Positions 4,668-29,483 of a stretch of 29,483 nucleotides of DNA are shown piece by piece. This DNA comes from a virus: positions 1 to 29,483 of the IMG/VR virus record IMGVR_UViG_3300018080_001728; one strand, written 5' to 3'. The position numbers and the translations under genes were made by a program. Every line of letters starts with the position of its first letter. The stretch's first letter is position 1. The notes below the pieces were generated by a model. The model saw only the letters and a list, made by a program, of their open reading frames with translations. It had not been told where the DNA came from and searched no databases.

Positions 4668-4668
4668 A

Positions 4669-5658: not shown

Positions 5659-8342
5659 TATTTTCTAAATGTTTTAAATTCTTTATCAATCAAAGATACA
5701 CCATCAACCTGTGTTGTTATTCTATTTTTAATAATACCCATATTTAAACCATACTCCGCAAATATGGTATTGAAATATATGTCCGCGGCGTCCCATTTAT
5801 GTTTTCTTAATTGGTCATGTAAAAACTTTTTCATTTTTTTGGGAAACATAATACATTGTAACCCTATAATTTTGTCTGTTATAAACAACAAGTCTTGATT
5901 GGGTATTTCTCGGATTACGTTTGATTGGCGCCAACCAAAGTCTAATGTTTTTGTATCCCCAAATGAATAATAATGAATATCATTTTCATTAATTAAATCA
6001 CAAGATTGTTTAACTTTATTAATAAACTCCTCAATTGGAACTTCAATTAAACAGTCTCCTTCACAAACAATTAAAAAATCTAAATCATCATCAAATTCTG
6101 ATAGTATTCCATTTTTAAATGATTCAAAACAACCGTAATGTGCAGGTGTTAAAGCGGTACCTAAAAGTTTTGTTGTATCCTCATTAAATAATTCCATTGA
6201 GACACATTGAGGTCTCATACAATTATGTGATGGTGGTAAAGATTTATATATTTCGTTTGTGTGTAAAACATATTCAATACCATGAGGAATTATCTGTTGT
6301 AGTGAGTTTCTTGATAATTGTTCCCTTTCATCATTATTTGTTGTCTGTAAATGAACCAATTTAATTTTTGGTAATTTTTTATGTTTAAACCACCCATTGT
6401 TTTTATATGAATTAATGGTTTCATTATTTAAGATATATTTTTCATTTTTATAGATAATATTATCCTCATAAAAAGTTAATCTTAATTCTATTTCAGAACC
6501 ATTGTATTCTAATTCCTTTAAAAACTCTCTTTGTTCCAATATGTTAAATTTTTTAGAAAAGGTTATATCACCATTTTCAATCACCTCAAAACTAACACTT
6601 CTATTATCTAAATTATATGTATAAAAATAAAACATCCATTTATTTTCAGTGTGTTTTACTGGTAATATTGAATAGTATTCAGAATTTGATGAAACACCTT
6701 TACCTGAATTTATTAGGAAAGTATTATGTTGGTTAGTTATTATTTTAATATTATTTTCTTTTGAGAAGACATTCCAAAAAAAGTCTTCTAAGAAATTATG
6801 ACAATTCATTTTAATACACTCCTGTTTATATTCTTCAGGTGTTCTAATATTTTGTAATTTTTCTAAAAAATAATTAGTTTTAAATGTCATAGCGGTTGTC
6901 TCAATACCACGACCTAAATCAGTAGGTAAAGTACATAAATAAGCATCATACACTTCAACCTCGTTAAATGAATTATTAACATATTCAATGTCGTCAGGAT
7001 TTAAAATTACATCATATGTTATGTAAAAAACCTTATCAAAATTTAAATCTTTTGCTGATTTAAAACCATTAATTAAGTTAGTTAAAACAGGTAAAGACTG
7101 ATTAGTATTCTTTAACCCATTTATGTTTATCTCAACATCAAAGTTGTGTTTATAGTTGTAAAATTTTGTATAATATGAGTGTTCGGTATTCGGATTATAC
7201 TTATCATAAATGTAGTAATCCACTTTTTCCTGTATCTCAAAAGAAACAGGATAGTGTGAAACCAACATTATTTTTCTACCCAATTTTTTAACCGATTCAA
7301 TACATTCTAAAGTTAATTTTTCTCTTGATTTAGTATTAGGGTATGTACCAATCATTACTAATTCATTAGTATAAAATTCTTTATTTGGTTTAAGAATTTC
7401 TAATAATTTTTCAGCATCTTTTTTTGCGTCACCCGTTAAAAAAGTTATGTTATCATAATCATCGTATTTACCACAGTACACATCTAAATTGTGCATCATC
7501 ATAGGTATTTTATATTCTAAAGCTTCTTTTAAAGCGATTGGATTTAATTCTTTGTTGTATCTATCGCCTTGTGATGCAAAGAAGAACAAATCAGACGCTT
7601 CTATGAAACTTTGAACGTCTTTTCTTTCACCCCAAATGACACAATTATCAGGTTTATTATTTATTAAAGGTTCCCAATATTCTCTAAAATTATCAGCTTG
7701 ATTACCTAAAAAATGAAATTTAATTTTATAATCTTTAAGTAATTTTGCAATTTCAAATATATAACCTTGATTTTTTCTTCGTGTAAATAAACCAACATTT
7801 AAAACATGTTTATATGACGGGTCAAAATTTAAAATGTGTTGATTTTCTTTTTTATTTTTAATTTTATAGTCTACAGGATATTCAACAATTTCATAAGGGA
7901 TATCATATATTGAATATCTAAACGCATTAAAAGCACTAACAAAAACAAATTTATCAGGAAACCATCTTTTTTCATTTACAGGAAAACTTGAGTCATGTGT
8001 TGTCTCTAAAATTGTGTAGTTTCTTTTTTCATTATAGATTTGTTTGGTTATTTCATCAGACATAAAAAACTCAGGAAACTCCTCCATAGAAACAACTTCA
8101 GGTTTAAACGCCTCAATAATTTTTAATATGTCACTTTTGTCATCACCCAATGATATAAAATTTTCATTAAGTAGTTCTTGTATTTGGCTTCTTTGAATGA
8201 CATAAGTCCAAGCGACAAAACTATGTTCAACACACATTATGTCATATATGTCCATTAATAATTTTATTTTATTTAATGTTACTTGTGGTCCCCCACCAGT
8301 ACTTAAATGAGGTGTTATTATTAATAATTTTTTTTTATTCAT
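5658..8342 (-). CDS. Multidomain glycosyltransferase (GT4 + GT-A-like + beta domain + GT25-like)
   Basis: This 894-residue protein appears to hold three transferase modules. Residues 1-325 look like a GT4-type GT-B enzyme: STGGGPQVTLNK glycine-rich loop, VLNVGLFTRRKNQGYIFE, FLGNQ and a KELNPIALKEALEY nucleotide-sugar segment. Residues 326-560 are paralogous to the separate 329-aa protein encoded next. Residues about 565-640 are the beta-rich domain shared with the 701-aa and 329-aa proteins. Residues 655-894 resemble GT25-type (LPS or collagen galactosyl-) transferases: LGTALTPAHYGCFESFKNGI followed by DFLIVCEGDCLIE, where EGD would be the DXD equivalent. The fusion suggests stepwise assembly of a short glycan by one polypeptide. 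It overlaps the heptosyltransferase gene by four bases. Donor sugars are unknown. Confidence 0.75.
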   Translation of the reverse strand: MNKKKLLIITPHLSTGGGPQVTLNKIKLLMDIYDIMCVEHSFVAWTYVIQRSQIQELLNENFISLGDDKSDILKIIEAFKPEVVSMEEFPEFFMSDEITKQIYNEKRNYTILETTHDSSFPVNEKRWFPDKFVFVSAFNAFRYSIYDIPYEIVEYPVDYKIKNKKENQHILNFDPSYKHVLNVGLFTRRKNQGYIFEIAKLLKDYKIKFHFLGNQADNFREYWEPLINNKPDNCVIWGERKDVQSFIEASDLFFFASQGDRYNKELNPIALKEALEYKIPMMMHNLDVYCGKYDDYDNITFLTGDAKKDAEKLLEILKPNKEFYTNELVMIGTYPNTKSREKLTLECIESVKKLGRKIMLVSHYPVSFEIQEKVDYYIYDKYNPNTEHSYYTKFYNYKHNFDVEININGLKNTNQSLPVLTNLINGFKSAKDLNFDKVFYITYDVILNPDDIEYVNNSFNEVEVYDAYLCTLPTDLGRGIETTAMTFKTNYFLEKLQNIRTPEEYKQECIKMNCHNFLEDFFWNVFSKENNIKIITNQHNTFLINSGKGVSSNSEYYSILPVKHTENKWMFYFYTYNLDNRSVSFEVIENGDITFSKKFNILEQREFLKELEYNGSEIELRLTFYEDNIIYKNEKYILNNETINSYKNNGWFKHKKLPKIKLVHLQTTNNDEREQLSRNSLQQIIPHGIEYVLHTNEIYKSLPPSHNCMRPQCVSMELFNEDTTKLLGTALTPAHYGCFESFKNGILSEFDDDLDFLIVCEGDCLIEVPIEEFINKVKQSCDLINENDIHYYSFGDTKTLDFGWRQSNVIREIPNQDLLFITDKIIGLQCIMFPKKMKKFLHDQLRKHKWDAADIYFNTIFAEYGLNMGIIKNRITTQVDGVSLIDKEFKTFRK

Positions 8343-9280
8343 ATTATTTCCATTATTTTTTCAATTACTTTATCTACAGTTGGGTGACACTCGAAAGTAG
8401 GTTTATTCTCTAAACATTTAATTAATAGTGGAACTCCCTGTATGTCACCCCATTCTTTCACACCATATTTCATATCTGATGCACACATTAAAGGACAAGT
8501 CCCACCAACATAATGGTATTTATATTGCTGACCACCATTTCTATATGGTGCTCTAAATTCAGGATTAATTGAACTACCTAATTGAATGATTTCACAATCA
8601 GTAGTTCCTGCCAAATGTAATAAACCTGAATCCATTGTAATAAAACAGATTGATTTATTAATTAAATGCCAACTTTGACTTATAGTTGTTTTGTTCATTA
8701 AATTTAAACCTTTCTTAATTTTAAAATTAAAAATCGGTTTACTAACATTGAAAAATCCTGTTTCACTAGAATCTTTACCTATAGACACTACACTAATACC
8801 TTTGTCATTTAATTTTTCAGTTAGTGTCATCCAATTCACTGCGTCCCAAGTTCTACTTGGCCAATTTTGAACAGGGTGAATTAAAACATATTTTTCAGGT
8901 AAACCATCAATGGGTTCAAATTCGTCAGGAATATAGTCTAGTTCCATCTCATCTTTAGTCAGCATAAATCCTAACTTAATTGCGTGATATTGTCTAATAT
9001 CTATGGTATTGTGTTTAAACTCAATACCACGATTATTTTTTTGACCATTTTCGTAAAATGAATTATGGGTTATAAAATGTTCGTTTATATAATCCATATT
9101 AATAGAGTTGGACTCATAAACTTTTTCAACATACGGATTATGTTTAAATAAGTCAGGATGTTTGGTTACAACAACTACTTTTGAATTGTATGAATGATAT
9201 ATTTTTCGTAGTACTGGTGTTGAACAAAGAGTATCTCCAATAGCATTTGCTTCACTTAAATTTAAACATATCTTTTTCAT
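8339..9280 (-). CDS. GT9 heptosyltransferase-like glycosyltransferase
   Basis: This 313-residue protein matches the ADP-heptose:LPS heptosyltransferase superfamily (GT9, GT-B fold). It has an N-terminal AIGDTLCSTPVLRKI, where the GD pair is the family's catalytic Asp region, a YVLIHPVQNWPSRTW acceptor/donor segment, and FITMDSGLLHLAGT near residues 213-226 for donor binding. Its C-terminus carries four cysteines (C262, C266, C289, C298; CX3C-X22-C-X8-C) followed by a Val-Ile-rich helix. This recalls the iron-finger of TibC-type enzymes but with different spacing. It is the first gene of the minus-strand operon and reads away from the virion-protein gene at 9373. LPS heptose transfer and protein O-heptosylation are both possible. 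Its relatives in the same operon make the second attractive. Confidence 0.8.
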   Translation of the reverse strand: MKKICLNLSEANAIGDTLCSTPVLRKIYHSYNSKVVVVTKHPDLFKHNPYVEKVYESNSINMDYINEHFITHNSFYENGQKNNRGIEFKHNTIDIRQYHAIKLGFMLTKDEMELDYIPDEFEPIDGLPEKYVLIHPVQNWPSRTWDAVNWMTLTEKLNDKGISVVSIGKDSSETGFFNVSKPIFNFKIKKGLNLMNKTTISQSWHLINKSICFITMDSGLLHLAGTTDCEIIQLGSSINPEFRAPYRNGGQQYKYHYVGGTCPLMCASDMKYGVKEWGDIQGVPLLIKCLENKPTFECHPTVDKVIEKIMEII

Positions 9281-9360
9281 ATGGGAAATATAAACAAAAA
9301 AGAGTAAAATTACATATCAAGTTTAATCAATAATCTATTTATGGTAAACCACATCGTGTT

Positions 9361-9370
9361 ATATTTATAA
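9361..9370 (+). promoter_or_regulatory. ATATTTATAA motif before gene 9373
   Basis: The motif lies two bases before the ATG at 9373 and matches similar motifs before other genes here (14509, 15142, 23041, 26642, and 19658 on the minus strand). Read on the other strand it is TATAAATAT, a T4-type late promoter core, which would face the glycosyltransferase operon starting at 9280. Promoter function is inferred from recurrence only. Confidence 0.35.
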
Positions 9371-9372
9371 GA

Positions 9373-9960
9373 ATGTATACCATTGAGATTACATCATTTA
9401 CTGGTACAACTCCGTTTAGTGTTACTATATGTGATATGACACTAACATATTGTTATGTTGTTGCAACAGGTGTATCGTCTGTTCCTGTCACTGTAAATGT
9501 ACCAATGCCGTTAACAGGGGCACCACAATTAATTGTTAAATTGGTAGACGCTAATAATTGTGAATATTTTCAATTATACAAATGTATTACTCCAACACCA
9601 ACTCCAACATTAACACCGACACCAACACCTAGCATGGTGATAGAATGTAATTGTATTACTTTTGATAATTCATCGGGTCTTACAGACTATAATATAAGTT
9701 TAACTCAATGTGATGGTACTATTCTGTATACAACAATTAACGCTGGTGTTATATCATATTATTGCGGTAAATTACCAAGTGCTGACCCTGAGGTAGTTAT
9801 TTCAATAGGATTGCCTTGTGTATCTAATAGTTGTCCCGCACCTGAATTAACTCCGACACCAACACCTACACCATCAAATACGCCTGGAATACCATTCTTA
9901 TTACAGGAAAATGGTTTTTATATTTTACAAGAGGATGGATTTAAGATAAAAATAACATAA
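9373..9960 (+). CDS. Thr/Pro-linker virion protein
   Basis: The 195-residue protein has two Cys-containing beta-type segments, each followed by a Pro-Thr linker. Residues 1-75 (ICDMTLTYCYVV and an NNCEYFQLYKCI end) are followed by TPTPTPTLTPTPTP. Residues about 90-155 (ECNCITFDNSSG and an SNSCPAPE end) are followed by TPTPTPTPSN. The protein ends in two copies of a seven-residue motif (LLQENGF, ILQEDGF). Two similar Ig-like or lectin-like modules joined by O-glycosylatable linkers are inferred. I do not recognise a named family. It sits between the glycosyltransferase operon and a collagen-like gene, which suggests a surface virion protein. Confidence 0.7.
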   Translation: MYTIEITSFTGTTPFSVTICDMTLTYCYVVATGVSSVPVTVNVPMPLTGAPQLIVKLVDANNCEYFQLYKCITPTPTPTLTPTPTPSMVIECNCITFDNSSGLTDYNISLTQCDGTILYTTINAGVISYYCGKLPSADPEVVISIGLPCVSNSCPAPELTPTPTPTPSNTPGIPFLLQENGFYILQEDGFKIKIT

Positions 9961-9999
9961 ACTAATATTTACTAATAACAACTAATAACTACTAATATG
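9961..9999 (+). repeat. Four 10-nt tandem repeats ACTAATANNN in a gene leader
   Basis: ACTAATA occurs at 9961, 9971, 9981 and 9991, exactly one DNA turn apart. The fourth copy runs into the ATG at 9997. The repeat fills the whole gap between the stop of the previous gene and the start of the collagen-like gene. Confidence 0.8.
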
Positions 10000-10764
10000 T
10001 CAGATTTACCAATATCATCGTTACCTTCCGCATCCACAGGGTATTCAGATTCCTTAATGGTTATCGTTAATTACAATCCAATTGCCACTGGTAGAACAGA
10101 GTCCATACCTTTTTCAGCAATAACTGCATCTACAATAGGTACATCGGGTACAAGCGGTGTTGATGGAACTTCAGGAACCGATGGTAGTAGTGGGACAAGC
10201 GGTTCATCAGGTACTGCAGGAACAAGTGGAACATCACCATCAAGTCCATATCCGTATGTTTATGGTCTGTTTACTCAAACAGGTGACACGTCAATATTAA
10301 GTGGTACGACAGAACAATCTATTGTTGATGGTGGTTTAGGTGTATTAACCGTAGGTGCTAACCAATTTCAGATAGGTGATACTTTTCACGCCGAAATCAA
10401 AGGTCATTTATCAAATAATAATGATTTTTTACAATTTAGAGTTAAATCTGATAGTGTTGTTTTAGCGGACAGTACATCAATTCAGTATAACACTAGTGGT
10501 GACGAAACACTTATGACATTAGATATATACTTTATAATACGACAAACAGGTACAACAGGAAATGCTGAAATATTAACAAAAGGATTTTTAAGTACTATTA
10601 AAAATTCTAATTTTAGTGTTAATGGGTACTCATTTGAAAGTACTAATAACACTACTTTTGATACCACCATTGAAAATACTTTAGATGTTACCATTCAGTT
10701 TGATGCAGAAGACCCGCAAACTTATATTTATACCGACTTTTTTATTTTAAACAAACTTTATTAA
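9997..10764 (+). CDS. Collagen-like virion/fibre protein
   Basis: The 255-residue protein starts with a short N-terminal segment (ISSLPSASTGYSDSLMVIVN and then an IPFSAI stretch) of the type that anchors phage fibre or appendage proteins to the virion. Residues about 47-75 are a Gly-X-Y collagen-like stretch of GTS, GTD, GSS and GTA units. The remaining 175 residues form a beta-rich head domain, with an LDVTIQFDAEDP region and an FFILNKLY end, that parallels the end of the protein at 1-687. Such proteins are usually trimers. The next gene, 35 bases downstream, encodes a GT60-type polypeptide GlcNAc-transferase-like protein, so this Ser/Thr-rich protein is a good candidate for its substrate. 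The substrate link is inference. Confidence 0.8.
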   Translation: MSDLPISSLPSASTGYSDSLMVIVNYNPIATGRTESIPFSAITASTIGTSGTSGVDGTSGTDGSSGTSGSSGTAGTSGTSPSSPYPYVYGLFTQTGDTSILSGTTEQSIVDGGLGVLTVGANQFQIGDTFHAEIKGHLSNNNDFLQFRVKSDSVVLADSTSIQYNTSGDETLMTLDIYFIIRQTGTTGNAEILTKGFLSTIKNSNFSVNGYSFESTNNTTFDTTIENTLDVTIQFDAEDPQTYIYTDFFILNKLY

Positions 10765-10799
10765 GTCTATTTTTATTTTATATTTCAATAAAAAGAAAT

Positions 10800-12047
10800 A
10801 TGAAAATATTCGTCCAAATCGCGGCATATAGAGACCCACAACTTATCCCAACTTTAGAATCAATGTTAAAATACGCTAAGTTTCCAAAAAACTTACGTAT
10901 AGGTATTTGTCGTCAGTATCATCCTGAAGATGGATTTGACAATTTAGATAAATACAGAAAAGATAAAAGGTTTAGAATCTTAGATGTTTTATATTCAGAA
11001 TCAAAAGGTGTTTGTTGGGCAAGAAATCAAGTACAACAACTTTACGATGGTGAAGAATATACTTTACAGATAGATTCTCACATGAGATTTGAAAAAGAGT
11101 GGGATGTAGAATTAATCAAAATGATTAAACAACTCCAAGATAAAGGATTTGAAAAACCTTTACTAACAGGTTATGTATCATCTTTTGACCCCGACAATGA
11201 CCCTGCAGGTAGAGTTAAAGAGCCTTGGAGAATGTCTTTTGATAGATTTATCCCTGAAGGTGCGGTATTCTTTTTACCCGAAACAATACCTGGTTGGCAA
11301 GAATTAACCGAACCCGTACCATCTAGATTTTATTCAGCACACTTTTGTTTTACTTTGGGGCAATTCAGTACTGAAGTACAGCATAACCCTGAATACTATT
11401 TCCACGGTGAAGAAATTTCAATTGCAGTTAGAGCCTATACTTGGGGTTATGATTTGTTTCACCCGCACAAAACTTTGATTTGGCACGAATACACTCGTAA
11501 GGGTAGAACCAAACAGTGGGATGATGATAGACAATGGGTTGATAAAAATAATCATTCACACTTAACAAATAGAAAACTATTTGGTATGGATGGTGAAACC
11601 CAGGAAGGACATGACGGACCTTATGGTTTTGGCCCTGTTAGAAGTTTAAAAGATTATGAAATTTATGCGGGATTAAAATTCTCAAGAAGAGCGGTACAAC
11701 AATATACCTTAGATAAAAACTACCCTCCAAATCCAACAATTTATAACACTGATGAAGAATGGGAAGCAAGTTTTGCGTCCATATTTAAACACTGTATTGA
11801 TATTTCATTTTCACAAGTTCCCGAAGATGATTATGATTTTTGGGTTGTTGCATTTCATGATGAAAAAGATGAAACTATCTTTAGAAAAGATGCTGATTTA
11901 AATGAAATAAAGAGAATGAAAACAGACCCTGACGGATATTGTAAAATTTGGAGAGACTTCCAAACGATACATAAACCAAAGTATTGGGTTGTGTGGCCAC
12001 ATAGTATGTCAAAGGGGTGGTGTGATAGAATAACTGGTAATTTATAA
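10800..12047 (+). CDS. GT60-type polypeptide GlcNAc-transferase-like protein
   Basis: The 415-residue protein matches the GlcNAc glycosyltransferase family (GT60) typified by the Dictyostelium Skp1 hydroxyproline GlcNAc-transferase. The start IFVQIAAYRDPQLIPTLES, the GVCWARNQVQQLYDGEEYTL block, and the DXD-equivalent IDSHMRF (D92, H94) are all family features. FHGEEISIAVRAYTWGYD (residues 201-218) and the downstream WHEYTR (H229) complete the GT-A active site. Characterised members add GlcNAc to hydroxyproline or hydroxyamino acids of proteins, not to lipids. Residues beyond about 260 are an extra C-terminal part of unclear role. It lies directly behind a collagen-like gene, and triple-helical Gly-X-Y proteins are classic glycosylation substrates. 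The true acceptor here is unknown. Confidence 0.8.
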   Translation: MKIFVQIAAYRDPQLIPTLESMLKYAKFPKNLRIGICRQYHPEDGFDNLDKYRKDKRFRILDVLYSESKGVCWARNQVQQLYDGEEYTLQIDSHMRFEKEWDVELIKMIKQLQDKGFEKPLLTGYVSSFDPDNDPAGRVKEPWRMSFDRFIPEGAVFFLPETIPGWQELTEPVPSRFYSAHFCFTLGQFSTEVQHNPEYYFHGEEISIAVRAYTWGYDLFHPHKTLIWHEYTRKGRTKQWDDDRQWVDKNNHSHLTNRKLFGMDGETQEGHDGPYGFGPVRSLKDYEIYAGLKFSRRAVQQYTLDKNYPPNPTIYNTDEEWEASFASIFKHCIDISFSQVPEDDYDFWVVAFHDEKDETIFRKDADLNEIKRMKTDPDGYCKIWRDFQTIHKPKYWVVWPHSMSKGWCDRITGNL

Positions 12048-12056
12048 CATATTAAA

Positions 12057-12809
12057 ATGTATAATGTTATCATATCACTAACAACTATTCCAAACAGGTT
12101 AATATCCCCGCATCAAAATGGAGGTGTAAGACCTGTTATAGACCTATTAGTTAATCAGGATTACCCTTACTATGAAATACATTTTAATATACCTTATGTC
12201 AATAAAAAAACTAATGAAGAGTATAAATTGCCTAATTGGTTATTGGACTATGGTGATAATAAATTAAAAATTTTTAGAACTGATGATTATGGTTCCATGA
12301 CTAAACTTTTACCAACTATTGAGCGTGTAAATGACCCTGAAACAATAATAATTACCGTTGATGATGACTTAAATTATGAGAATGGGTTTATTGAATACCA
12401 TTTAATGAAACGTGAGGTTTACCCCAATTCAGCACTAGGATTTGCAGGTATTGGTAGTATAAATGGGTCTTGTCATTTTTGCACAACTTTAAAAGAAGAT
12501 ACGAGAGTAAAAATTATTGAGGGATACAAAACGGTTTCATATAAAAGAAAGTTCTTTGGTGATGACTTTAAAGAATTTGTTTTAGGTAATTGGAATGATG
12601 ATATGATAATATCAGCATACCTTGGTAAAAATAATATTCATAAAATTGTTATGAACTATAATCGAGATACTGATTTTAGACCACGAGTTGAGTCTTTTCC
12701 TGTAATAGGACATTTACCAAATGAAAGTGGTGGTTGTAATATTTTTAGAACGGAGCAAGTACCCGACAACCACCAACACTACTATAAATTAGGTTATTTA
12801 GAAAAATAA
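12057..12809 (+). CDS. GT-A-like glycosyltransferase
   Basis: The 250-residue protein shows a GT-A pattern. It starts with VIISLTTIPNRL, has a YPYYEIHFNIPY segment and a DYGSMTKLLPT segment typical of sugar-nucleotide-binding folds, then IIITVDDDLNY, where D102-D104 form the metal-binding acidic cluster. GNWNDDMIISAYLG carries further acidic residues near the expected catalytic base. I recognise the general type but not a named family with a known substrate. It lies nine bases after the GT60-type gene, and its stop abuts the ATG of the HtrL/YibB fusion gene at 12810, so the three are probably one transcription unit. Confidence 0.65.
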   Translation: MYNVIISLTTIPNRLISPHQNGGVRPVIDLLVNQDYPYYEIHFNIPYVNKKTNEEYKLPNWLLDYGDNKLKIFRTDDYGSMTKLLPTIERVNDPETIIITVDDDLNYENGFIEYHLMKREVYPNSALGFAGIGSINGSCHFCTTLKEDTRVKIIEGYKTVSYKRKFFGDDFKEFVLGNWNDDMIISAYLGKNNIHKIVMNYNRDTDFRPRVESFPVIGHLPNESGGCNIFRTEQVPDNHQHYYKLGYLEK

Positions 12810-14483
12810 ATGAGTATTACATTAGTTACTGGTTTATGGAATATAGGTAGGGGCGAACTATCTGAAGGTTGGTCACGTTCTTATCAACATTATTTGGATA
12901 AATTCAATCAACTTTTAGATACACCAAATAATATGATAATATTTGGTGATAAAGAACTACAAGAATTTGTTACAAAAAAAAGAAAATCAGAGAATACTCA
13001 GTTTGTAGTTAGAGATTTAAGTTGGTTTAAAAATAATGAGTTTTATAATAAAATTCAAAAAATAAGAACTAACGAAAATTGGTATACTCAAACAGGGTGG
13101 TTGGTTGATTCAACCCAATCTAAATTAGAAATGTATAATCCTTTGGTAATGTCCAAAGTATTTTTATTACATGATGCAAAGATTTTAGATAAATTTAATT
13201 CAGAATATCTTTTTTGGATTGATGCTGGTTTAACAAATACTGTTCACCCTGGTTATTTTACGCATGATAAAGTTTTTGAAAAATTACCAAAATATATTAA
13301 TAAATTTTCATTTGTGTGTTTTCCATATGAGGCGAATACTGAAATACACGGGTTCAATTATAATAGGTTAAATGAGTTATCGGGTAATAAAGTAAATAAA
13401 GTTGCTAGAGGTGGATTTTTTGGTGGACCTAAAAACACAATATCAGATATTAATTCAATTTATTATGGTTTATTGTCAACAACCCTTGATGAAGGTTATA
13501 TGGGAACTGAAGAATCAATCTTTAGTATTATGTGTTATAAACATTCTGATATTATAAATTACTTTGATATTAACGGTGATGGTATGGTTTGGAAATTTTT
13601 TGAGGATTTAAAAAATGATTCATTGGTTATTAAATCTGAAAAACCCAAAGAAATTGTTAATAACAATTTGGACACCAACAAAGTTGGTTTATATGTAATT
13701 ACATTTAATAGTCCAAGTCAATTTGAAACTTTAATAAAATCCATGTTAGATTATGATTCAGATTTTATTGCCAAAACAAAAAAATTCTTATTGGATAATT
13801 CTACGGATTTATCAACAACACCAAGATATATTGAGTTGTGTGAAGAATATGGATTTGAACATATTAAGAAAGATAATATTGGAATTGTTGGTGGTAGAGT
13901 ATTTGTTGCGGAACATTTTAACGAAACTGATTTAGATTTCTATTATTGGTTTGAGGATGACATGACTTTTTATGATAAAAAAAATGAGATATGTAAAAAT
14001 GGGTTTAATAGATATGTTTCAAATTTATATTTAAAATCTTTGGAAATAATTAAAAAAGAAAATTTTGATTTTCTTAAATTAAATTATACAGAATTTTATG
14101 GTGATAATGGTGTCCAGTGGTCTTGGTATAATCTGCCACAGGATAAACGAAAAGAATTATTTCCTGAAAAACAAAACTTACCCATACAAGGTTTAGACCC
14201 TAATGCACCTAGAACTAAATTTAATTCAATAAAAACACATAAAGGGTTATCATATATTGATGGTGAAATATATCTATGTAACTGGCCAATTATTCTAACA
14301 AAAAAAGGTAATTATAAATGTTATTTAGAAACAAAGTGGGCTCATCCTTTTGAACAAACCCTCATGTCTTATTGTTATCAAGAAACTGTTAAAGGTAATG
14401 TAAAACCAGGTTTATTATTACTCACACCAACTGAACATAATCGTTTTGAATTTTATTCCGCTGATTTAAGAAAAGAGTCCTAA
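12810..14483 (+). CDS. HtrL/YibB family protein fused to glycosyltransferase-like domain
   Basis: Residues 1-275 of this 557-residue protein are a full HtrL/YibB domain. It begins SITLVTGLWNIGRGELSEGW, continues with MIIFGDKEL and RDLSWFKNNEFY, then an EYLFWIDAGLTNTVHPGYF block, a VARGGFFGGPK block and GTEESIFSIM. WIDAGL and GTEES are the acidic sites expected of a transferase. In E. coli, yibB lies in the LPS-core region and its function is not established. Residues about 290-557 look like a second GT-A domain (GLYVITFNSPSQFETLIKSM, YYWFEDDMTFYD with DD at 383-384). The fusion supports a glycosyltransferase role for the HtrL domain. It ends a cluster of three glycosyltransferase genes. Confidence 0.8.
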   Translation: MSITLVTGLWNIGRGELSEGWSRSYQHYLDKFNQLLDTPNNMIIFGDKELQEFVTKKRKSENTQFVVRDLSWFKNNEFYNKIQKIRTNENWYTQTGWLVDSTQSKLEMYNPLVMSKVFLLHDAKILDKFNSEYLFWIDAGLTNTVHPGYFTHDKVFEKLPKYINKFSFVCFPYEANTEIHGFNYNRLNELSGNKVNKVARGGFFGGPKNTISDINSIYYGLLSTTLDEGYMGTEESIFSIMCYKHSDIINYFDINGDGMVWKFFEDLKNDSLVIKSEKPKEIVNNNLDTNKVGLYVITFNSPSQFETLIKSMLDYDSDFIAKTKKFLLDNSTDLSTTPRYIELCEEYGFEHIKKDNIGIVGGRVFVAEHFNETDLDFYYWFEDDMTFYDKKNEICKNGFNRYVSNLYLKSLEIIKKENFDFLKLNYTEFYGDNGVQWSWYNLPQDKRKELFPEKQNLPIQGLDPNAPRTKFNSIKTHKGLSYIDGEIYLCNWPIILTKKGNYKCYLETKWAHPFEQTLMSYCYQETVKGNVKPGLLLLTPTEHNRFEFYSADLRKES

Positions 14484-14530: not shown

Positions 14531-15109
14531 ATGGAATTCTTTGTCAAAAAAAACGCCACCTTACCGGTACTTAAACTTTCTGTGGTGAAAGATGGTCGCA
14601 GTGATTATAATAGTTTCATGAAAACTATTGAACTTTCGGCTATTTTCTTTTCCATGGTGGATATTGAAACGGGAATACCAAAAATAAGTTCAAGACCGGC
14701 AGGATTTGTTGAAAAGACTTTTTTGGACCCAAATGCTGAAACAGAATATTATATATATTATCAATTTACACCGATTGATACGAATAGGGTTGGTAGATAT
14801 GAAGGTCAATTTATGTTAAGAAATGATGATGGTGTTTTAATCTTACCAATCAGGGAGAAATTATTTATAAATGTGCAAGAATCATTTATCGCAGATGACT
14901 TGGAATATAATTCTTGTTATACTTCAGAATTTCCATGTTGTGTTAATGGGCCTTATACGACAACAACAACTACGGCACCATGTCCAAGTTGTCCGACATG
15001 TCCTGAACCAACACCAACTCCAATACCAACGACAACCACAACAACATTTTTTCCAACGACAACAACAACCACATTTATACCTATAACAACAACCACGACA
15101 TTTTATTAA
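14531..15109 (+). CDS. Structural protein with poly-Thr mucin-like tail
   Basis: Residues 1-135 of this 192-residue protein form a beta-rich domain (MEFFVKKNATLPVLKLSVV, MVDIETGIPKISSRPAG, RVGRYEGQFML) that resembles the N-terminal domain of phage baseplate or receptor-binding accessory proteins. Residues about 136-192 are low complexity: a TTTTTTAP tract, a Cys/Pro section (CPSCPTCPEP), then alternating TPTP and TTTTTT tracts separated by FF and FIP. The tail looks like a mucin-type O-glycosylation target. The gene sits between the glycosyltransferase cluster and DNA polymerase, with its own ATATTTATA-type upstream motif. The structural role is inferred, and no named family is claimed. Confidence 0.65.
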   Translation: MEFFVKKNATLPVLKLSVVKDGRSDYNSFMKTIELSAIFFSMVDIETGIPKISSRPAGFVEKTFLDPNAETEYYIYYQFTPIDTNRVGRYEGQFMLRNDDGVLILPIREKLFINVQESFIADDLEYNSCYTSEFPCCVNGPYTTTTTTAPCPSCPTCPEPTPTPIPTTTTTTFFPTTTTTTFIPITTTTTFY

Positions 15110-19648: not shown

Positions 19649-19658
19649 ATATAAATAT
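19649..19658 (-). promoter_or_regulatory. ATATTTATAT motif before gp13 gene
   Basis: On the minus strand, 12 bases before the gp13 ATG (19636), lies ATATTTATAT, the same motif seen before plus-strand genes. It also overlaps the last base of the stop of the dismutase fusion gene. Inferred promoter. Confidence 0.35.
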
Positions 19659-21196
19659 TATGATAGAGTATAAATTAAATCTTTTTCAGGAAAAACATAA
19701 TCACCACCAACAATCTTGGTGTTGTAATTTTTAAATATTAAAACTTCTTTATTATTTTTTGTAAAGATTAACCAGTCTGTTGTATATTTTTTAACATTTG
19801 CGGAACCATAAACAAATAACTTACCATCAATTTTTTTAAATGAAGAAAATGGTTTTATTTGACAGGTTATTTTTTTACCTTTAAGTATTATTTCACAATC
19901 AATACCACCTATCATATCCGCCTTACTACCTAACTTACCAACAGGAATTACATTTTCCTCACCAAATTTTTTCTTTAATATTTTAATAGTTTCATCTTCT
20001 CTTTTTTGACCCCAACTATCTGTTTGTGTCAATACTCTCATTATGTTTTGAAATGTTGATGATGCTCTATTAAAAATTCTGAATTTGTAATCATCAATAA
20101 GTTTTACAAATTTTTTAGTTTGTATTAATTGTTCTTTTGGAGTTAAACCAATAATTTTAATTTCTTCTTTACCACCATGTTTTAATACTTGATTAATATC
20201 ATTCAATAAAATACAAAAACAACTGTAATTGGTGTTTAATTTATTTATAACGGAACGACCTTCTTTTTCTAAATCATAAACACCAGCAGTTTCACCCTTT
20301 TCATATTCATTAACACCAAAATAGTTTTCATTAAAAACTTCTTTTAATATTTTATTAATTGCGTCTTTAAAAGTGTGTTTTATAATTGGGTTTACATTAA
20401 AAACAAATCTTATCGCTTCAGTTTCTTCTTTACTACATCTTTCGGATTTTCCTTCAGATAATACAGATTTTAATTGTACGGTTTCATTCAATTTGGATTC
20501 TATTTTCATCGTGTATAATTTATTAACAAAATCCCAATTTACACACTTCCAAAAGTTTTTAATGTATTCATCTCTTTTGTTTCTGTATTTTAAATAATAT
20601 GCGTGTTCCCATAAGTCTAATCCCAACAAAGGATAACCACCATCTTCAATAACGTTCATAAGAGGATTGTCTTGATTTGGTGTTGATACCACTTTTAATC
20701 TGTTTGTTTTAGTCAAGACCAACCAAACCCATCCTGAACCAAATCTTTCTTTAGCAATTTCCTCAAATTTTTGTTTAAAATTTCTATAGGTTTTAAAATC
20801 TTTTTTAATTTTTTCTAAAACATCCCCATTGGGTTCTTGTGTTTTAGGTGATAACATTTTCCAAAATAACGCGTGATTAAAAGCACCACCAGCATTATTT
20901 CTGATTGTTTTATCAAATCTACTAATTGATTTTATAATATCTTCAAGTTCTAAATCACCGTATTTTTTCTTACTAAGAGCCGAATTTAATTTGTCTACAT
21001 AACCTTTATAATGTTTATTATAATGGTAATTCATTGTTTCAGCATCAATAAATTGTTTTAGTGCTGAATAGGCGTAAGGTAGTTTTTCAATACCTATTTT
21101 TTTCATTTCATTTAGGAATAATTTTTGGTTTTCTTTTTTTTCAACCTCTAAAATTTGTTCCTTAATGATTTCTACTTTGTTTTCTATGTTTTTCAT
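19658..21196 (-). CDS. Mn/Fe superoxide dismutase fused to PD-(D/E)XK nuclease-like domain
   Basis: Residues about 35-225 of this 512-residue protein are a complete Fe/Mn superoxide dismutase. Metal ligands H58 (MNYHYNKH), H108 (FNHALFW), D194 and H198 (GLDLWEHAYYLKY) are all present. AGGAFNH together with TPNQDNPLM is the MnSOD pattern rather than the Fe type. Residues 230-380 are unassigned, helical and charged. Residues about 380-512 resemble a PD-(D/E)XK nuclease: a REDE helix, GSKADMIGGID (D433), then TCQIKP (Q446, K448) in place of ExK. The same C-terminal module occurs in the protein at 23859-25364. Dismutase activity is well supported by the residues. Nuclease activity is only a motif-level inference. 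It lies between helicase and gp13 on the same strand. Confidence 0.85.
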   Translation of the reverse strand: MKNIENKVEIIKEQILEVEKKENQKLFLNEMKKIGIEKLPYAYSALKQFIDAETMNYHYNKHYKGYVDKLNSALSKKKYGDLELEDIIKSISRFDKTIRNNAGGAFNHALFWKMLSPKTQEPNGDVLEKIKKDFKTYRNFKQKFEEIAKERFGSGWVWLVLTKTNRLKVVSTPNQDNPLMNVIEDGGYPLLGLDLWEHAYYLKYRNKRDEYIKNFWKCVNWDFVNKLYTMKIESKLNETVQLKSVLSEGKSERCSKEETEAIRFVFNVNPIIKHTFKDAINKILKEVFNENYFGVNEYEKGETAGVYDLEKEGRSVINKLNTNYSCFCILLNDINQVLKHGGKEEIKIIGLTPKEQLIQTKKFVKLIDDYKFRIFNRASSTFQNIMRVLTQTDSWGQKREDETIKILKKKFGEENVIPVGKLGSKADMIGGIDCEIILKGKKITCQIKPFSSFKKIDGKLFVYGSANVKKYTTDWLIFTKNNKEVLIFKNYNTKIVGGDYVFPEKDLIYTLS

Positions 21197-23569: not shown

Positions 23570-23862
23570 AAATAATAATAACCGAATCTCAAATAGAAGT
23601 GGTAAGACGATTGTATGAAATTGGGGAAATTATTAATGAAGTAATTACACAACTTAACAATGATATAAAGAATGGGGGGTCAGGTAATAAACCTGACAAC
23701 TTTGGAGTATATGAAAATTGGGTAGTTAATAGAGTTTCAAGATATTTTAAAAATAAAAACCCTAATATTGATTATGATAGAATAGATTTTTTAATGTTAG
23801 TTTCAGGTCAGTTTAATGGAGAACTTAGGAAAGGTTTTAATAAGGTCAGAAAGAAAAAATGA
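23566..23862 (+). CDS. Small protein with MKIIITESQI start, function unknown
   Basis: The 98-residue product starts MKIIITESQIEVVRRLYE, followed by a helical, Lys/Asn-rich body ending in a basic KVRKKK tail. The first ten residues nearly repeat those of the next protein (MKIVLTENQI), which otherwise differs. Start and stop overlap the neighbours by four bases each (ATGA), so translation is coupled. The shared leader-like N-terminus could be a targeting segment, for example for packaging into the prohead, or just a common helix. No family is recognised. Confidence 0.65.
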   Translation: MKIIITESQIEVVRRLYEIGEIINEVITQLNNDIKNGGSGNKPDNFGVYENWVVNRVSRYFKNKNPNIDYDRIDFLMLVSGQFNGELRKGFNKVRKKK

Positions 23863-25364
23863 AAATAGTTTTAACAGAAAATCAAATTTATAGTTTATTA
23901 GAAAAAATTTCTAATCAAGAAGTTATTTGTGATAATTGTGGTTGGTCTTGGAACCTTTCAGAGGGTGGTGATGACCCATACACTTGTCACAAGTGTGGTC
24001 ATGATAATGCGGAAGATGAATTTATCGGTAAACGAGTTATGGTTTATTATAATTTACGCAAACATACTTTTTCAGTAACCTATAAGAGTAAGGTTATATT
24101 ACACGCCGATTATGTTAAACTTGGTGATGTTGAATTTAGAGTTAGAAAAGGCGGAAAGGAAAAAGTTAGAGTTGAGAAAAGTAAAAATGTTCACGCGTTT
24201 GTTATCGGTAATTTATTAGATTATTGTCAATATCCTTGTGATAATATACCATCAGAACCTAATGATAATATTGTAACATATAATCCATACAAATACGATA
24301 GTTTTGTTTATAAAAATACTGAAGAGCCAGTTTATAACGCAAAAGAGGTTGAGATGATTAACTTAAAAAATAAATTATTTGTTATAAATGAAATTAAATC
24401 ATCAATTTTAAGAGAGGCTGAAGAAGAACCAACAAAGTACACCTACACAACACTTGGGCTTTATGATAAGTGGGGAATTAAAAGATATTATTTTAATAAA
24501 GTTTTACCTGTTGTTGATGATTCGCCAATACCTAATAAAATAAAAATTTTTGGTAGTGATGGTGATTTTATTTTAAATAAAGAAAACGTTAAAATAGATT
24601 ATTTAAATAAAAAAATACATGTTGACAAAAAATATTTTGATTTAGTTTATCCAAATTTTAAATTTAAGTCTACTGAAAAATTATCCGAAAAGATTGGAAT
24701 AACTTCGTCTAATGTTAGAGAGGCTTTAAAACAGGCATTCCCTAATGAATGGGAAGATGAAACACCCGAATTTACCGCAGGATTAAGGGGTATTTACACA
24801 ATAGGTGAAAAATTAGGAACCGATGAAGATTGGTCAATTATGAATTACTTTGATACTAAAGATGAAATTCATTCATTAATTTATTTGAAATATTTTGATT
24901 ATTTAAAAGAAAATCCTGACAAAGAAATTAATGATATTGTTTCTTGGATGGCCGAGTTATTTACAACTGATATTGATTTTACAAATTTATTAGTAGATAG
25001 ACAATGGTCATCAATTGAAAGTGGATTAAATCTTGAAAGATATTCAATAGATAATTTTATAGATAAAATAGGGACTAGTGATGTTAAATATTATCCACAC
25101 GGTTCTAAGATGGATAGATGGTTTAGTGTTGATGTAACAGTAAATAACACTAATTTTCAAATAAAACCTTTAACCTTATTTAAGAAAGAAAACGATGAGT
25201 ATATTGTGGGTACTTATGGTATGACGGATTATAAATCAAAAAAGAAGGTTGATAAAATAGCTTTTGTAAATTTTAGTAAATGTATAATAATTGATAATAA
25301 AGATTATAAAGTACTTTCTAAAACCAAAGTTTCATTTAAACAAAAACCACAAATAATTAACTAA
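23859..25364 (+). CDS. Zinc-ribbon protein with PD-(D/E)XK-like C-terminus
   Basis: This 501-residue protein has several modules. Residues 1-17 repeat the MKI(I/V)xTExQI leader of the previous protein. Residues 24-46 form a zinc ribbon (C24, C27, C43, C46) around GWSWNLSEGGDDPYTC, a cassette I recall from other phage proteins fused to varied domains. Residues about 53-110 form a small beta domain (VMVYYNLRKHTFSV, KSKNVHAFVIG). The middle part is unassigned. Residues about 390-501 have an acidic helix, GSKMDRWFSVDV (D425) and FQIKP (Q434, K436), then a run of strands like the C-terminus of the dismutase fusion at 19658. A nuclease-like end is inferred, and catalysis is unproven. It is coupled to the genes on both sides. 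Confidence 0.7.
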   Translation: MKIVLTENQIYSLLEKISNQEVICDNCGWSWNLSEGGDDPYTCHKCGHDNAEDEFIGKRVMVYYNLRKHTFSVTYKSKVILHADYVKLGDVEFRVRKGGKEKVRVEKSKNVHAFVIGNLLDYCQYPCDNIPSEPNDNIVTYNPYKYDSFVYKNTEEPVYNAKEVEMINLKNKLFVINEIKSSILREAEEEPTKYTYTTLGLYDKWGIKRYYFNKVLPVVDDSPIPNKIKIFGSDGDFILNKENVKIDYLNKKIHVDKKYFDLVYPNFKFKSTEKLSEKIGITSSNVREALKQAFPNEWEDETPEFTAGLRGIYTIGEKLGTDEDWSIMNYFDTKDEIHSLIYLKYFDYLKENPDKEINDIVSWMAELFTTDIDFTNLLVDRQWSSIESGLNLERYSIDNFIDKIGTSDVKYYPHGSKMDRWFSVDVTVNNTNFQIKPLTLFKKENDEYIVGTYGMTDYKSKKKVDKIAFVNFSKCIIIDNKDYKVLSKTKVSFKQKPQIIN

Positions 25365-25365
25365 T

Positions 25366-26403
25366 ATGCCGTTACCTAAAAAAATAAAAAAACATATGCC
25401 TTTAACTTCTTCAAAGACTTTATTTGCTAGAAGGGAAGAACTTGTTGATAAAATTAATAAGGATGGGACATACCTTCCCAAATCATTATTACATGCTGAT
25501 TTGGACAAAGGATTTTTGGATTTTGTAAAAGAAGATTTAAAAACTGTTGTTACGGGTAAAGTAATACCAATGGTTGATATTATTGTTACAACACAAAATT
25601 GGTCTCAATTTACAGAGACTTGGAATTTTCAAAATATAGATAAAAATGTTGAACCACCATTTATTACTGTGGTAAGAGTTCCCGAAGTAAAATTTGGAAC
25701 TAATCCCGCGTTACTTTATAACATACCAAATAGAAGACAATATTTTTATGCTCAAGTTCCAACGTGGGACGGACAACGACATGGAATGGATATTTACAAA
25801 ATACCACAACCTGTACCTGTTGATATAACTTATCAAGTTAAAATCATTTGTAACAGAATGAGAGAATTAAATCAATTTAATAAAGTTGTTTTAGAAAAGT
25901 TTGCATCGAGACAAGCGTATGCCGTTATTAAAGGACATTATGTTCCAATAATTATGGATAACATTTCAGACGAATCTGTGATGGAATTAGAAAAAAGAAA
26001 ATACTACATACAAAACTATGGGTTTACTATGTTAGGATTTTTAATGGATGAGGATGAGTTTGAAGTTTCACCAGCCGTTTCAAGAGTTTTACAGGTAGTT
26101 GAATTTGAACAAGGTACAACTAAAAAACAAAAAAAGAATTTGGTTGATAATAAAAAGGTCTCAAGTGATGCAATATTTGTTGTGGGTAATAATACAGTAA
26201 CACAACTATTTGATTATACGACCGATATATCTGTAGGAGAAACATTAAACATTGATAGTTTTGATGTTTTTATTAATAATGATTATTATGGTTCTGATAT
26301 TAGTGAAATACAATTAAACACTAATGACGTTTTAAGATTAGTTGTTACCAAAACTGATAACACTCAAGAAAGTAAAATTAACCTAATTAATTTGGTGATT
26401 TAA
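25366..26403 (+). CDS. Tail sheath terminator, probably T4 gp15-like
   Basis: The 345-residue protein fits the gp15 proximal tail sheath stabiliser family in pattern. A YKIPQPVPVDITYQVKII strand parallels the SPIKMIYELSIFT segment of T4 gp15. A helix (LNQFNKVVLEKFA) then matches the MFQIVEQIL region, and VPIIMDNISDESVMELEKR followed by YYIQNYGFTMLGFLMDEDEF matches the aligned charge-turn-strand end. The last 75 residues (IDSFDVFINNDYYG) are an extra domain not found in T4 gp15 (272 aa). It follows gp14-like and two unknown genes, and the sheath gene is next, as expected for the gp13-14-15-18 order. gp15 caps the tail at its head end. The assignment rests on a by-eye pattern. Confidence 0.55.
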   Translation: MPLPKKIKKHMPLTSSKTLFARREELVDKINKDGTYLPKSLLHADLDKGFLDFVKEDLKTVVTGKVIPMVDIIVTTQNWSQFTETWNFQNIDKNVEPPFITVVRVPEVKFGTNPALLYNIPNRRQYFYAQVPTWDGQRHGMDIYKIPQPVPVDITYQVKIICNRMRELNQFNKVVLEKFASRQAYAVIKGHYVPIIMDNISDESVMELEKRKYYIQNYGFTMLGFLMDEDEFEVSPAVSRVLQVVEFEQGTTKKQKKNLVDNKKVSSDAIFVVGNNTVTQLFDYTTDISVGETLNIDSFDVFINNDYYGSDISEIQLNTNDVLRLVVTKTDNTQESKINLINLVI

Positions 26404-26564
26404 TCTTCACCATATATATCAGGTTTATCCTTACATTTTTCAATAATTAATTTCTCTAAAAACTTATACATCTTGAATCCCCTCTTTTCACAATATGTTT
26501 TTAATATATCGTGAACTTCAACTGAAATCTTTAAGTTTTTTATTTTCTTTTCGTTTTGTTTCAT
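26400..26564 (-). CDS. Ribbon-helix-helix (Arc/MetJ-type) DNA-binding protein, 54 aa
   Basis: An ATG on the minus strand at 26562-26564 opens a 54-codon ORF ending in TAA at 26400-26402, so it overlaps the plus-strand gene's stop by three bases. The protein has a basic N-terminus (MKQNEKKIKN), a strand (LKISVEV), a first helix (HDILKTYCEKRG), the turn FKMYK, and a second helix (FLEKLIIEKC), which is the ribbon-helix-helix layout. Small phage repressors and accessory regulators of this fold bind inverted repeats as dimers. One such repeat lies at 26602-26628, upstream of its start and upstream of the divergent sheath gene. It is therefore a candidate for autoregulation and control of the sheath. 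No target has been shown. Confidence 0.75.
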   Translation of the reverse strand: MKQNEKKIKNLKISVEVHDILKTYCEKRGFKMYKFLEKLIIEKCKDKPDIYGED

Positions 26565-26687: not shown

Positions 26688-29483
26688 ATGGCAACAAACA
26701 GTAAAGTATTCGTATCACCTGGTGTGTATACCTCTGAAGTAGACTTAAGTTTTGTAGCTCAAAGTGTTGGGGTAACAACATTAGGTATTGTTGGTGAAAC
26801 TTTAAAAGGACCAGCATTTGAACCTATATTTATCACAAACTTTGATGAATTTTCTACTTACTTTGGAGATACTTCACCAGAAAAATTTATCAACACTCAA
26901 ATCCCTAAGTATGAGGCGGCTTACATAGCCAAGGCTTATTTACAACAATCAAATCAATTGTTTGTAACTAGAATATTAGGATTATCAGGTTACGATGCGG
27001 GTCCATCGTGGACAATAACAACAAAGGCGAATGTAGACCCATTAACAATAGATTTTTATTGTGAAGACCCAGTTATTGTAAACTGTGAACCAGATTGTAA
27101 TGACTTTTTAACTATTGATTTCGCAATAGACTTTTCGGGTTGTACTAACAGTATAGACTCTATTGAGTTTTTAGACCCAACACAAATACCAACTGTAATT
27201 GCGAATAGAATTGATATTCCTTATGAATTGTTTGATGGTAGTACTTCTACATTGAGAACAAACATGGAAGACCAAATTTTTGACATTTTAAATGACACTA
27301 ATTTGGAAAACACATCAATTTATTATTATGGTGCAATTTCAGGAGATACCTACAGTGGTTTTAGTCCTGTGTTCACCGCAGAAACTAATGTGTTTGGTGT
27401 TAACAGTGTTGATGCTTCAGTAATTGATTATTCGGCACCTCAAAACGACCCTTGGTATTATGCATTATTTGATAATTTAGGTAATGCTGCTTATACAGGA
27501 TATTCATTTTGGAGTGTTGTTACAGGTTTAACTTTAACACCACCAACAACTACGACAACCACAACATCAACAGGTACTACAACAACCACAACAACTAATC
27601 CTTGTGTGACACCAACACCAACAAGTACAACAACTACGACTACCGCAGCTCCTGTTAATTGTTATACAGGTACTTTAATCGGTAGGATTTATGTGTTCTC
27701 AGGAACCGCATATACTGATTATGATGATTTGGTAATTGCAACTCTTCGTTCAAGAGGTATTGCAACTTACAGTTCAGACAATGGTCCAGTATATGAAGTA
27801 TCAGGTTTGACAGATGTTATTATGGACTGTACAGGTCAATATTCAGGTGTAACTAAAAACCCATATGCAACCTTTGGTTTAAATGTAACAAATAAAAATG
27901 GTGAGAATTTCTTCTTTGAAACATCTTTCCAAAACTCAGACCCTGAATACTTACCTAAAGTTTTCGGTTCATCAAATTTTGCAAAACCAAGAACGGTTGT
28001 TCCATTATTTGTTGAGGAAAGATTCCAAGCTCTTTTAAACTACGGTTGGAGAAAAGGATTCATCAGAGGTTTAAATTGTGATTTAACAGCGTTACCTAAC
28101 GCAAGACAAGGTAATGACCCAACGTCAATTGCTTGGTATTTAGAACAATATCAATCACCAACATCACCTTGGGTCGTATCTGAATTAAGAGGTAACAAAG
28201 TTTACAACTTATTTAAATTTACAACAATCGCTGATGGAGATGATGCAAATACTGAAGTTAAATTATCAATTTCTAATATTTCATTTAATAACGGAACATT
28301 TGATGTTTTAGTTAGAGATTTCTTTGATTCAGACTCAAACCCAGTTGTTTTAGAGAAATTCACAAATTGTAATATGAACCCTAACGATAACGCGTTTATC
28401 GCTAAAAAAATTGGTACTACTGATGGTGAATACCAACTAAACTCTAAATATATTATGATTGAAATCAATGAGGATGCACCTATAGATGCGTTACCTTGTG
28501 GATTCTTAGGATTTAATTTTAGAGAATATGCGGGTGTTAGACCTCCATTCCCAATTATTAAAACTAAATATGATTTCCCTGGTGAAGTAATTTATAACCC
28601 ACCGTTTGGATTATCATCAGGTGCAGATGACGTTACAAGAAGTAATGGTGATAATGTTCGTAGAACCTACTTGGGTATTTCAGATACTATAGGTATTGAC
28701 GTTGATTACTATTCTTATAAGGGTAAACAATTACCGTTAGACATATGTTCTGACTCAACAGGTGAGGATTGGGCGTTTAGAAGTAGAGGTTTCCATATGG
28801 ACATTAATGCTAGTGCAATCACAATCCCTAATGCGTTTGTAACTAGTGGTACACCAGCGTTTTATGTTGGTAGTGCACCTTTCACTTCAGACCCTGATAA
28901 CGAAGATAATCCATACTACAGAATATTCGCTCGTAAATTTAGTTTATTGTGTCAAGGTGGTTTTGACGGATGGGACATCTATAGAGAATACAGAACTAAC
29001 CAAGATAGATTTAAATTAGGTAGAAATGGATACTTGAACGGAGCTTGTCCTTCAATCAAATACCCAACAGCAACAGGATGGGGGGCATTTAAACAAATTA
29101 CTGTTGGCGACAACACTCAAGATTATGCAAATACTGACTATTACGCTTATCTTTTAGGTCAAAGAACATTTGCTAACCCTGAGGCGGTAAACATTAACGT
29201 GTTCGTAACACCAGGTATTGACTATGTAAACCATTCAGACTTGGTTGAAAGTGCAATTGATATGGTTGAGAATGATAGAGCAGACTCTTTATATATCTGT
29301 ACAACACCTGACTACAACATGTTTGTACCATCAACTCAAGGTAATCTTGATTTAATTTATCCACAAGAAGCGGTAGATAATTTAGAAACAACAGGTATTG
29401 ATTCTAACTACACCGCAACTTACTACCCTTGGGTATTGACTCGTGACAGTGTTAATAATACTCAAATTTACATACCAGCAACT
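26688..29483 (+). CDS. 18: Tail sheath protein (gp18-like), 3' end outside window
   Basis: The frame is open from the ATG at 26688 through the last base, 932 codons, with no stop, so the C-terminus is missing. It starts KVFVSPGVYTSEVDLSFVAQ, the sheath family start, and near its end has SNYTATYYPWVLTRDSV, which matches the sheath C-terminal domain (YYPW). FRGLNCDLTALPNARQ and NVFVTPGIDYV are internal sheath blocks. Residues about 105-400 are an expansion. They contain a Cys-bearing region and a poly-Thr stretch (residues 284-322, 25 Thr of 39) rich in TTTTTT and TPTPT. Polymers of this protein contract to drive the tail tube through the envelope. The expansion would sit on the outside of the sheath. 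T4 gp18 is 659 aa, so this one is far longer. Confidence 0.9.
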   Translation, partial: MATNSKVFVSPGVYTSEVDLSFVAQSVGVTTLGIVGETLKGPAFEPIFITNFDEFSTYFGDTSPEKFINTQIPKYEAAYIAKAYLQQSNQLFVTRILGLSGYDAGPSWTITTKANVDPLTIDFYCEDPVIVNCEPDCNDFLTIDFAIDFSGCTNSIDSIEFLDPTQIPTVIANRIDIPYELFDGSTSTLRTNMEDQIFDILNDTNLENTSIYYYGAISGDTYSGFSPVFTAETNVFGVNSVDASVIDYSAPQNDPWYYALFDNLGNAAYTGYSFWSVVTGLTLTPPTTTTTTTSTGTTTTTTTNPCVTPTPTSTTTTTTAAPVNCYTGTLIGRIYVFSGTAYTDYDDLVIATLRSRGIATYSSDNGPVYEVSGLTDVIMDCTGQYSGVTKNPYATFGLNVTNKNGENFFFETSFQNSDPEYLPKVFGSSNFAKPRTVVPLFVEERFQALLNYGWRKGFIRGLNCDLTALPNARQGNDPTSIAWYLEQYQSPTSPWVVSELRGNKVYNLFKFTTIADGDDANTEVKLSISNISFNNGTFDVLVRDFFDSDSNPVVLEKFTNCNMNPNDNAFIAKKIGTTDGEYQLNSKYIMIEINEDAPIDALPCGFLGFNFREYAGVRPPFPIIKTKYDFPGEVIYNPPFGLSSGADDVTRSNGDNVRRTYLGISDTIGIDVDYYSYKGKQLPLDICSDSTGEDWAFRSRGFHMDINASAITIPNAFVTSGTPAFYVGSAPFTSDPDNEDNPYYRIFARKFSLLCQGGFDGWDIYREYRTNQDRFKLGRNGYLNGACPSIKYPTATGWGAFKQITVGDNTQDYANTDYYAYLLGQRTFANPEAVNINVFVTPGIDYVNHSDLVESAIDMVENDRADSLYICTTPDYNMFVPSTQGNLDLIYPQEAVDNLETTGIDSNYTATYYPWVLTRDSVNNTQIYIPAT

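Follow-up and report, generated by a model that had tools for sequence, protein, structure and literature searches.

Genes and features of the locus

The window, that is, the whole stretch of 29,483 nucleotides that was analysed (IMG/VR virus record IMGVR_UViG_3300018080_001728, an uncultured bacterial virus), ends within a gene for a contractile tail sheath protein of the T4 gp18 type, and the middle of this protein carries a threonine-rich tract. The features of the sheath gene, together with two further genes of the window that are considered below, are collected in Table 1.

Table 1. Coordinates of the sheath gene, its parts and two further genes in the window
Feature	Position	Strand	Description and evidence
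GT60-like polypeptide GlcNAc-transferase candidate (PF11397)	10800..12047	+	E 3.2e-64; DSHMRF motif
Second poly-Thr protein	14531..15109	+	Thr tracts at the C-terminus; Thr tracts also at this junction in homologues, in some cases joined to a papain-like domain
T4 gp18-type tail sheath protein	26688..29483	+	Residues 1-932 of 1111, the window stopping short of the 3' end; Pfam, profile, model
Variable accessory region	27006..28022	+	Residues ~107-445, after the conserved N-terminal segment; identity, model pLDDT ~90
Cys125, Cys133, Cys137, Cys152	27060..27143	+	Co-occur with Cys306 and Cys325
Upstream hairpin strand	27489..27539	+	Residues 268-284; strand in both AlphaFold models
Thr-rich tract, exchangeable slot	27537..27653	+	Residues 284-322, predicted disordered loop at hairpin tip; composition, pLDDT ~45, 194 relatives
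Cys306, mid-tract, [ND]PC motif	27603..27605	+	xPC...C[YFW]xG pair in 93/93 poly-Thr or PTS slots, 0/64 empty slots
Downstream hairpin strand	27660..27710	+	Residues 325-341, from Cys325 on; both AlphaFold models

Several other genes were recorded in the window. Positions 945-14483 hold a glycosyltransferase cluster (GT1, GT2, GT9, GT60, HtrL/YibB-like, methyltransferase and DUF6165 genes) around collagen-like and TPTP-bearing genes. A minus-strand gene at 19658-21196 encodes a phage Fe/Mn superoxide dismutase (PF00081, PF02777) whose C-terminus is extended by about 290 residues, and this extension showed weak similarity, in a QIKP region, to the open reading frame at 23859-25364 (BLASTP E 0.066). 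Just upstream of the sheath gene, a minus-strand open reading frame of 54 amino acids (26403-26564) gave a weak match to PF10723, below the cut-off (E 0.011).

Identity and architecture of the sheath

The complete sheath was recovered from a relative (L002:43-3375), which is 1111 aa long and identical across residues 1-932. When the sheath as it stands in the window (residues 1-932) was searched against PHROGs and Pfam, no sheath family was returned, because the diagnostic C-terminal domain falls beyond the end of the window; in the C-terminal half of a full-length orthologue (L055), Pfam recognised the subtilisin-like sheath domain (PF04984, E 3.9e-9) and the C-terminal sheath domain (PF17482, E 8.4e-9). 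The profile of the family matched gp18-type sheaths with an E-value of 4.7e-37, residues 9-98 being aligned weakly to gp18-type positions 4-85 and residues 751-1106 strongly to positions 295-653.

The AlphaFold model of the sheath, built on an alignment of 92 rows that included distant sheaths, reached a mean pLDDT of 81.8 and a pTM of 0.76. An earlier run with 43 close sequences had given a pLDDT of 40 overall with confidence in the accessory domain only, and the accessory domain of that model had no useful Foldseek or VIA match. The second model matched the T4 sheath in Foldseek (E 5.5e-16) and sheath cores in VIA (Z 24 across residues 29..1090), the core fold being formed by the N- and C-terminal segments. 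When single-domain sheaths (about 350 residues) are aligned to the model, they span its residues 29-1090 but match at only about 300 positions, which indicates that the two ends of the protein together form the core and that the middle is added material. The original prediction had named the protein a contractile tail sheath, and Pfam, the gp18-type profile, Foldseek and VIA all agree with it. The same plan, in which extra domains are inserted between the two terminal segments that form the core, is seen in T4 gp18 and the multi-domain (type 3) sheaths (PMC9230969). The size of the protein, which had been put forward as an oddity, is a weak argument, as published sheaths reach 1283 aa (PMC9230969). 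A scan of bacterial genomes with the sheath found no relative and thus provided no link to a host.

The accessory region, which follows the conserved N-terminal segment, is the most variable part of the sheath. Mean identity among relatives was 0.41 for residues 106-274 and 0.55 for residues 325-445, in comparison to 0.89 for residues 1-105 and 0.79 for residues 751-1111.

Composition and predicted position of the threonine-rich tract

In the frame that starts at 26688, the tract reads TPPTTTTTTTSTGTTTTTTTNPCVTPTPTSTTTTTTAAP, and of its 39 residues 25 are Thr, 6 are Pro and 2 are Ser; both the position and the threonine count had been predicted exactly. Since Thr makes up 8.7% of the sheath elsewhere, the binomial probability of such a tract is 1.5e-17, and among 20,000 shuffled versions of the complete sequence the best 39-residue window contained 16 Thr. 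Three Thr runs with unlike spacers can be distinguished by eye. With Thr, Pro and Ser accounting for 33 of the 39 residues and a pLDDT of about 45, the tract is dominated by the residues of a mucin-like (PTS) domain and is predicted to be disordered, as such domains are.

Both flanking strands have high pLDDT in the second model, and the tract between them is the sole stretch of the accessory domain that AlphaFold leaves disordered. The tract is predicted to be a disordered loop that caps a long beta-hairpin, and the hairpin belongs to a domain that interrupts the contractile core. This low-confidence loop comes after the N-terminal half of the core and before the C-terminal half, in agreement with the earlier assignment of the insert to the protruding-domain region. 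Extra sheath domains have been placed between the N- and C-terminal core segments, away from the tube (PMC9230969), and from this published placing, the hairpin-tip topology and the exchange of the tract in relatives, we infer that the tract faces the tail exterior. As for the further claim that the insert would coat the outside of the tail, the structure prediction, made for the protein outside the sheath lattice, upheld a loop at a hairpin tip and showed no sign of burial.

Exchange of the tract among related sheaths

A total of 194 distinct near-complete sheaths from IMG/VR were compared. The results showed that the slot is empty in 64 of them, poly-Thr in 78 and Pro/Thr/Ser-rich (PTS) in 15, and that it holds a domain of about 80 residues in 28 and the same domain with a nested insert in 9; the 28 take in one sheath (L121) with a different domain that has TTTTT tracts on both sides. 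The tract is not confined to the present virus, as 78 distinct relatives have poly-Thr.

To place these contents on a phylogeny, a quick core tree was built under LG+G4 with the accessory region excluded from the alignment. The slot class needs 18 changes on this tree in comparison to a mean of 42 for shuffled classes, and the well-supported (starred) branches force at least 10 changes for poly-Thr and at least 7 for the domain class. The slot contents thus appear to switch repeatedly on the tree with the core largely conserved, although recombination within the sheath gene could inflate the count of switches. The replacement of the tract by whole folded domains in relatives makes its burial unlikely, as a buried segment would hardly tolerate such exchange.

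The slot domain of about 80 residues may be beta-sandwich-like. Of its 22 members, 6 gave a weak match to the cadherin-like family PF12733 (best E 0.0072), and there was a weak similarity to the N-terminal part of solved glycoside hydrolases at E 0.002 (4jrl, E 0.0019). In being small, perhaps a beta-sandwich, presumably exposed and exchanged among relatives, the folded slot domain (class D) is similar to the Ig-like decoration domains known from virions; the differences are that its fold match is weak (PF12733, E 0.007) and that the slot of the present virus contains no domain. In the published work on sheaths (PMC9230969), the additions described are mostly Ig-like, and threonine tracts are not mentioned. 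What distinguishes the present sheath from T4 gp18 and the type 3 sheaths is a hairpin tip that serves as a slot, for which five kinds of content were seen, poly-Thr included.

Selection on the tract

The distance from the PC motif to the following Cys, which covers the second half of the tract, was 17 to 19 residues in 78/78 poly-Thr slots and 19 residues in 15/15 PTS slots. The original prediction had raised the presence and length variation of the insert in related phages, and the answer is that poly-Thr occurs in a large number of them and with near-constant length. Among close relatives, 76.5% of the changed codons at slot Thr were synonymous in comparison to 62% at the other Thr of those proteins, and the expectation for ACN codons under random single-base change is about one third. 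The constancy of length together with the synonymous excess indicates that the tract is kept as Thr by selection at the protein level.

The same measurements bear on the possibility that the tract is neutral low-complexity filler, that is, a slippage-prone repeat of ACN codons which has no function and is tolerated in a loop. Loops do tolerate repeats and similar Thr/Pro tracts are found in many proteins of the lineage, but the lengths are near-constant in 93 diverged sequences, the Thr codons show a synonymous excess, the codons are mixed and do not form a pure DNA repeat, and the mid-tract cysteine is always retained. We thus judge filler to be very improbable, slippage being disfavoured by the codon and length data. 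A different reading is that the tract may represent a linker style of the whole lineage without a specific task, as Thr-rich linkers are common in the other proteins of these viruses. Thr/Pro linkers were found in many other proteins of these viral genomes, and none of the eight empty-slot (class A) records that were scanned had a run of six Thr codons; such runs were present in the majority of the other records, though not in every one.

Other Thr-rich proteins were noted as well. Homologues of the second poly-Thr protein (L371-L400) share a conserved N-terminal part of about 125 residues, which is followed by a Thr tail, a papain-like domain (so named from a reading of its sequence), various other domains, or no tail at all; in a 322-kb record (G025), the match to this protein sits in an open frame that spans 3709 residues. 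Giant proteins in two genomes (L264-L274 in G003, L283-L291 in G001) carry very long TPTxTPT tracts, the longest single stretch measuring about 645 residues.

Cysteines of the slot region

Six cysteines (C125, C133, C137, C152, C306 and C325) are present in essentially all of the 130 slot-filled sheaths, with single exceptions at C125, C152 and C325. They are absent from the 64 empty-slot sheaths, save for C152 and the base cysteine in two of them (L053 and L054), in which the slot cysteine fell in column 306 in one alignment and in column 325 in another and is assigned to 325 by its context, GCYTG or GCFTG. This pattern suggests that C152 pairs with C325 and that a second group ties C306 to a neighbouring loop via disulfides or a metal, with the shared ancestry of the slot-filled clade being a confounder that yields the same co-occurrence. 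With Cys306 in the middle of the tract and Cys325 at its base, both co-occurring with the four cysteines of neighbouring loops, we infer such tethering, and the tract is probably two short tethered loops and not a free brush. The word brush in the original prediction is thus probably too loose.

Another pair, C381 and C464 (window positions 27828-27830 and 28077-28079), covaries in 98/99, in empty and filled slots alike, and probably forms a disulfide that is independent of the tract.

The cysteines could also be viewed as an inter-subunit staple, in which disulfides of the slot region lock neighbouring subunits and the Thr tract is the flexible arm that gives C306 its reach. The six co-occurring cysteines, along with the separate covarying pair, are in line with this, and the sheath of Agrobacterium phage Milano is known to be locked by inter-subunit disulfides (PMC10811340). 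Milano resembles the present case in having a contractile sheath with structurally important cysteines, but its disulfides were solved and lie between subunits, while the pairing here is deduced from co-occurrence. Relatives with an empty slot do without these cysteines and their tails presumably still work, and four of the six cysteines could equally bind metal, which makes a staple improbable in our opinion.

A candidate enzyme for glycosylation of the tract

The gene for the GT60-like protein is located directly downstream of the fibre/adhesin region, where many genes are Thr/Pro-rich or collagen-like. Its product matched PF11397 with 218 bits in comparison to a cut-off of 21, and the DSHMRF motif, which we take to be the catalytic DxH-type metal motif of the GT60 family, was found in 16/16 of its phage relatives. 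Solved structures for the protein were searched for by sequence and none was found. The polypeptide GlcNAc-transferase of Trypanosoma cruzi presumably belongs to the same family (PF11397/GT60). The enzymes of T. cruzi and Dictyostelium start Thr-linked GlcNAc mucin glycosylation (PMC3769586). In two unrelated jumbo phages that carry a GT60-like gene, XacN1 and CM1, a giant open reading frame with TPTPTP linkers lies within about 10 kb of it.

These observations lead to the possibility of a mucin-type O-glycosylation by the phage, in which the GT60-like enzyme would put GlcNAc on Thr in the sheath loop as well as in other virion proteins that are Thr/Pro-rich, neighbouring glycosyltransferases would extend it, and the resulting sugar coat would shield the virion or mimic host glycans. 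The PF11397 gene with several further glycosyltransferase genes around it, its invariant motif, the mucin-initiating activity of family members, its position next to the fibre/adhesin region and the TPTPTP frames of the two jumbo phages all speak for it, and capsid and tail tube subunits of mycobacteriophages are cited in PMC12619734 as bearing glycans. On the other hand, the GT60-like gene does not track the sheath tract, as it is also found in genomes of class A (empty slot) and of classes D and E (folded domain), and the targets of the glycosyltransferases may be DNA or surface glycans of the host. We therefore treat glycosylation of the tract, and with it the sugar-ready brush of the original prediction, as plausible in view of the GT60-like enzyme but unlikely. 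Also unlikely, in our view, is the broader proposal of a phage-made mucin-type coat over the sheath and other Thr loops of the virion, in which the virus would use the slot to change its tail decoration between a loop with glycans and a folded domain. The use of the PF11397 gene as a marker of the Thr tract was rejected, since the gene turned up irrespective of the slot content.

The likeness to T. cruzi mucins consists of a Thr-rich segment and a candidate transferase of the same family in one genome; the differences are that the present tract is a single 39-residue loop within a structural protein, not a whole mucin, and that the enzyme does not follow the tract. A search of the available literature found no report of Thr-rich sheaths or of GT60 in phages.

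Interpretation and significance

Taken together, we consider it quite likely that the gp18-type sheath has an exposed slot for exchangeable decorations, which is filled here by the tract as a constrained Thr loop. The slot would be the hairpin tip of the accessory domain, at a distance from the regions in contact with the tube and with neighbouring core domains. It would hold in the present virus about 40 disordered Thr-rich residues tethered at mid-tract by Cys306 and at the base by Cys325, and two short, extended, hydrophilic loops would then project from each of many sheath subunits. The likeliest job of such loops would be to set the presentation of the tail exterior, such as spacing, shielding and weak contact with glycans of the host envelope, and not contraction, with O-glycosylation by the GT60-like enzyme of the phage as a possible further step.

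Extra domains on phage sheaths are already known; in the present sheath family, a single site can be traced through many replacements. As the contents of the slot appear to have been replaced many times with the core largely conserved, the purpose of tail decorations could be tested by swapping them. If the Thr loops were indeed glycosylated by the enzyme of the phage, a virus of bacteria would possess its own counterpart of mucin-type O-glycosylation.
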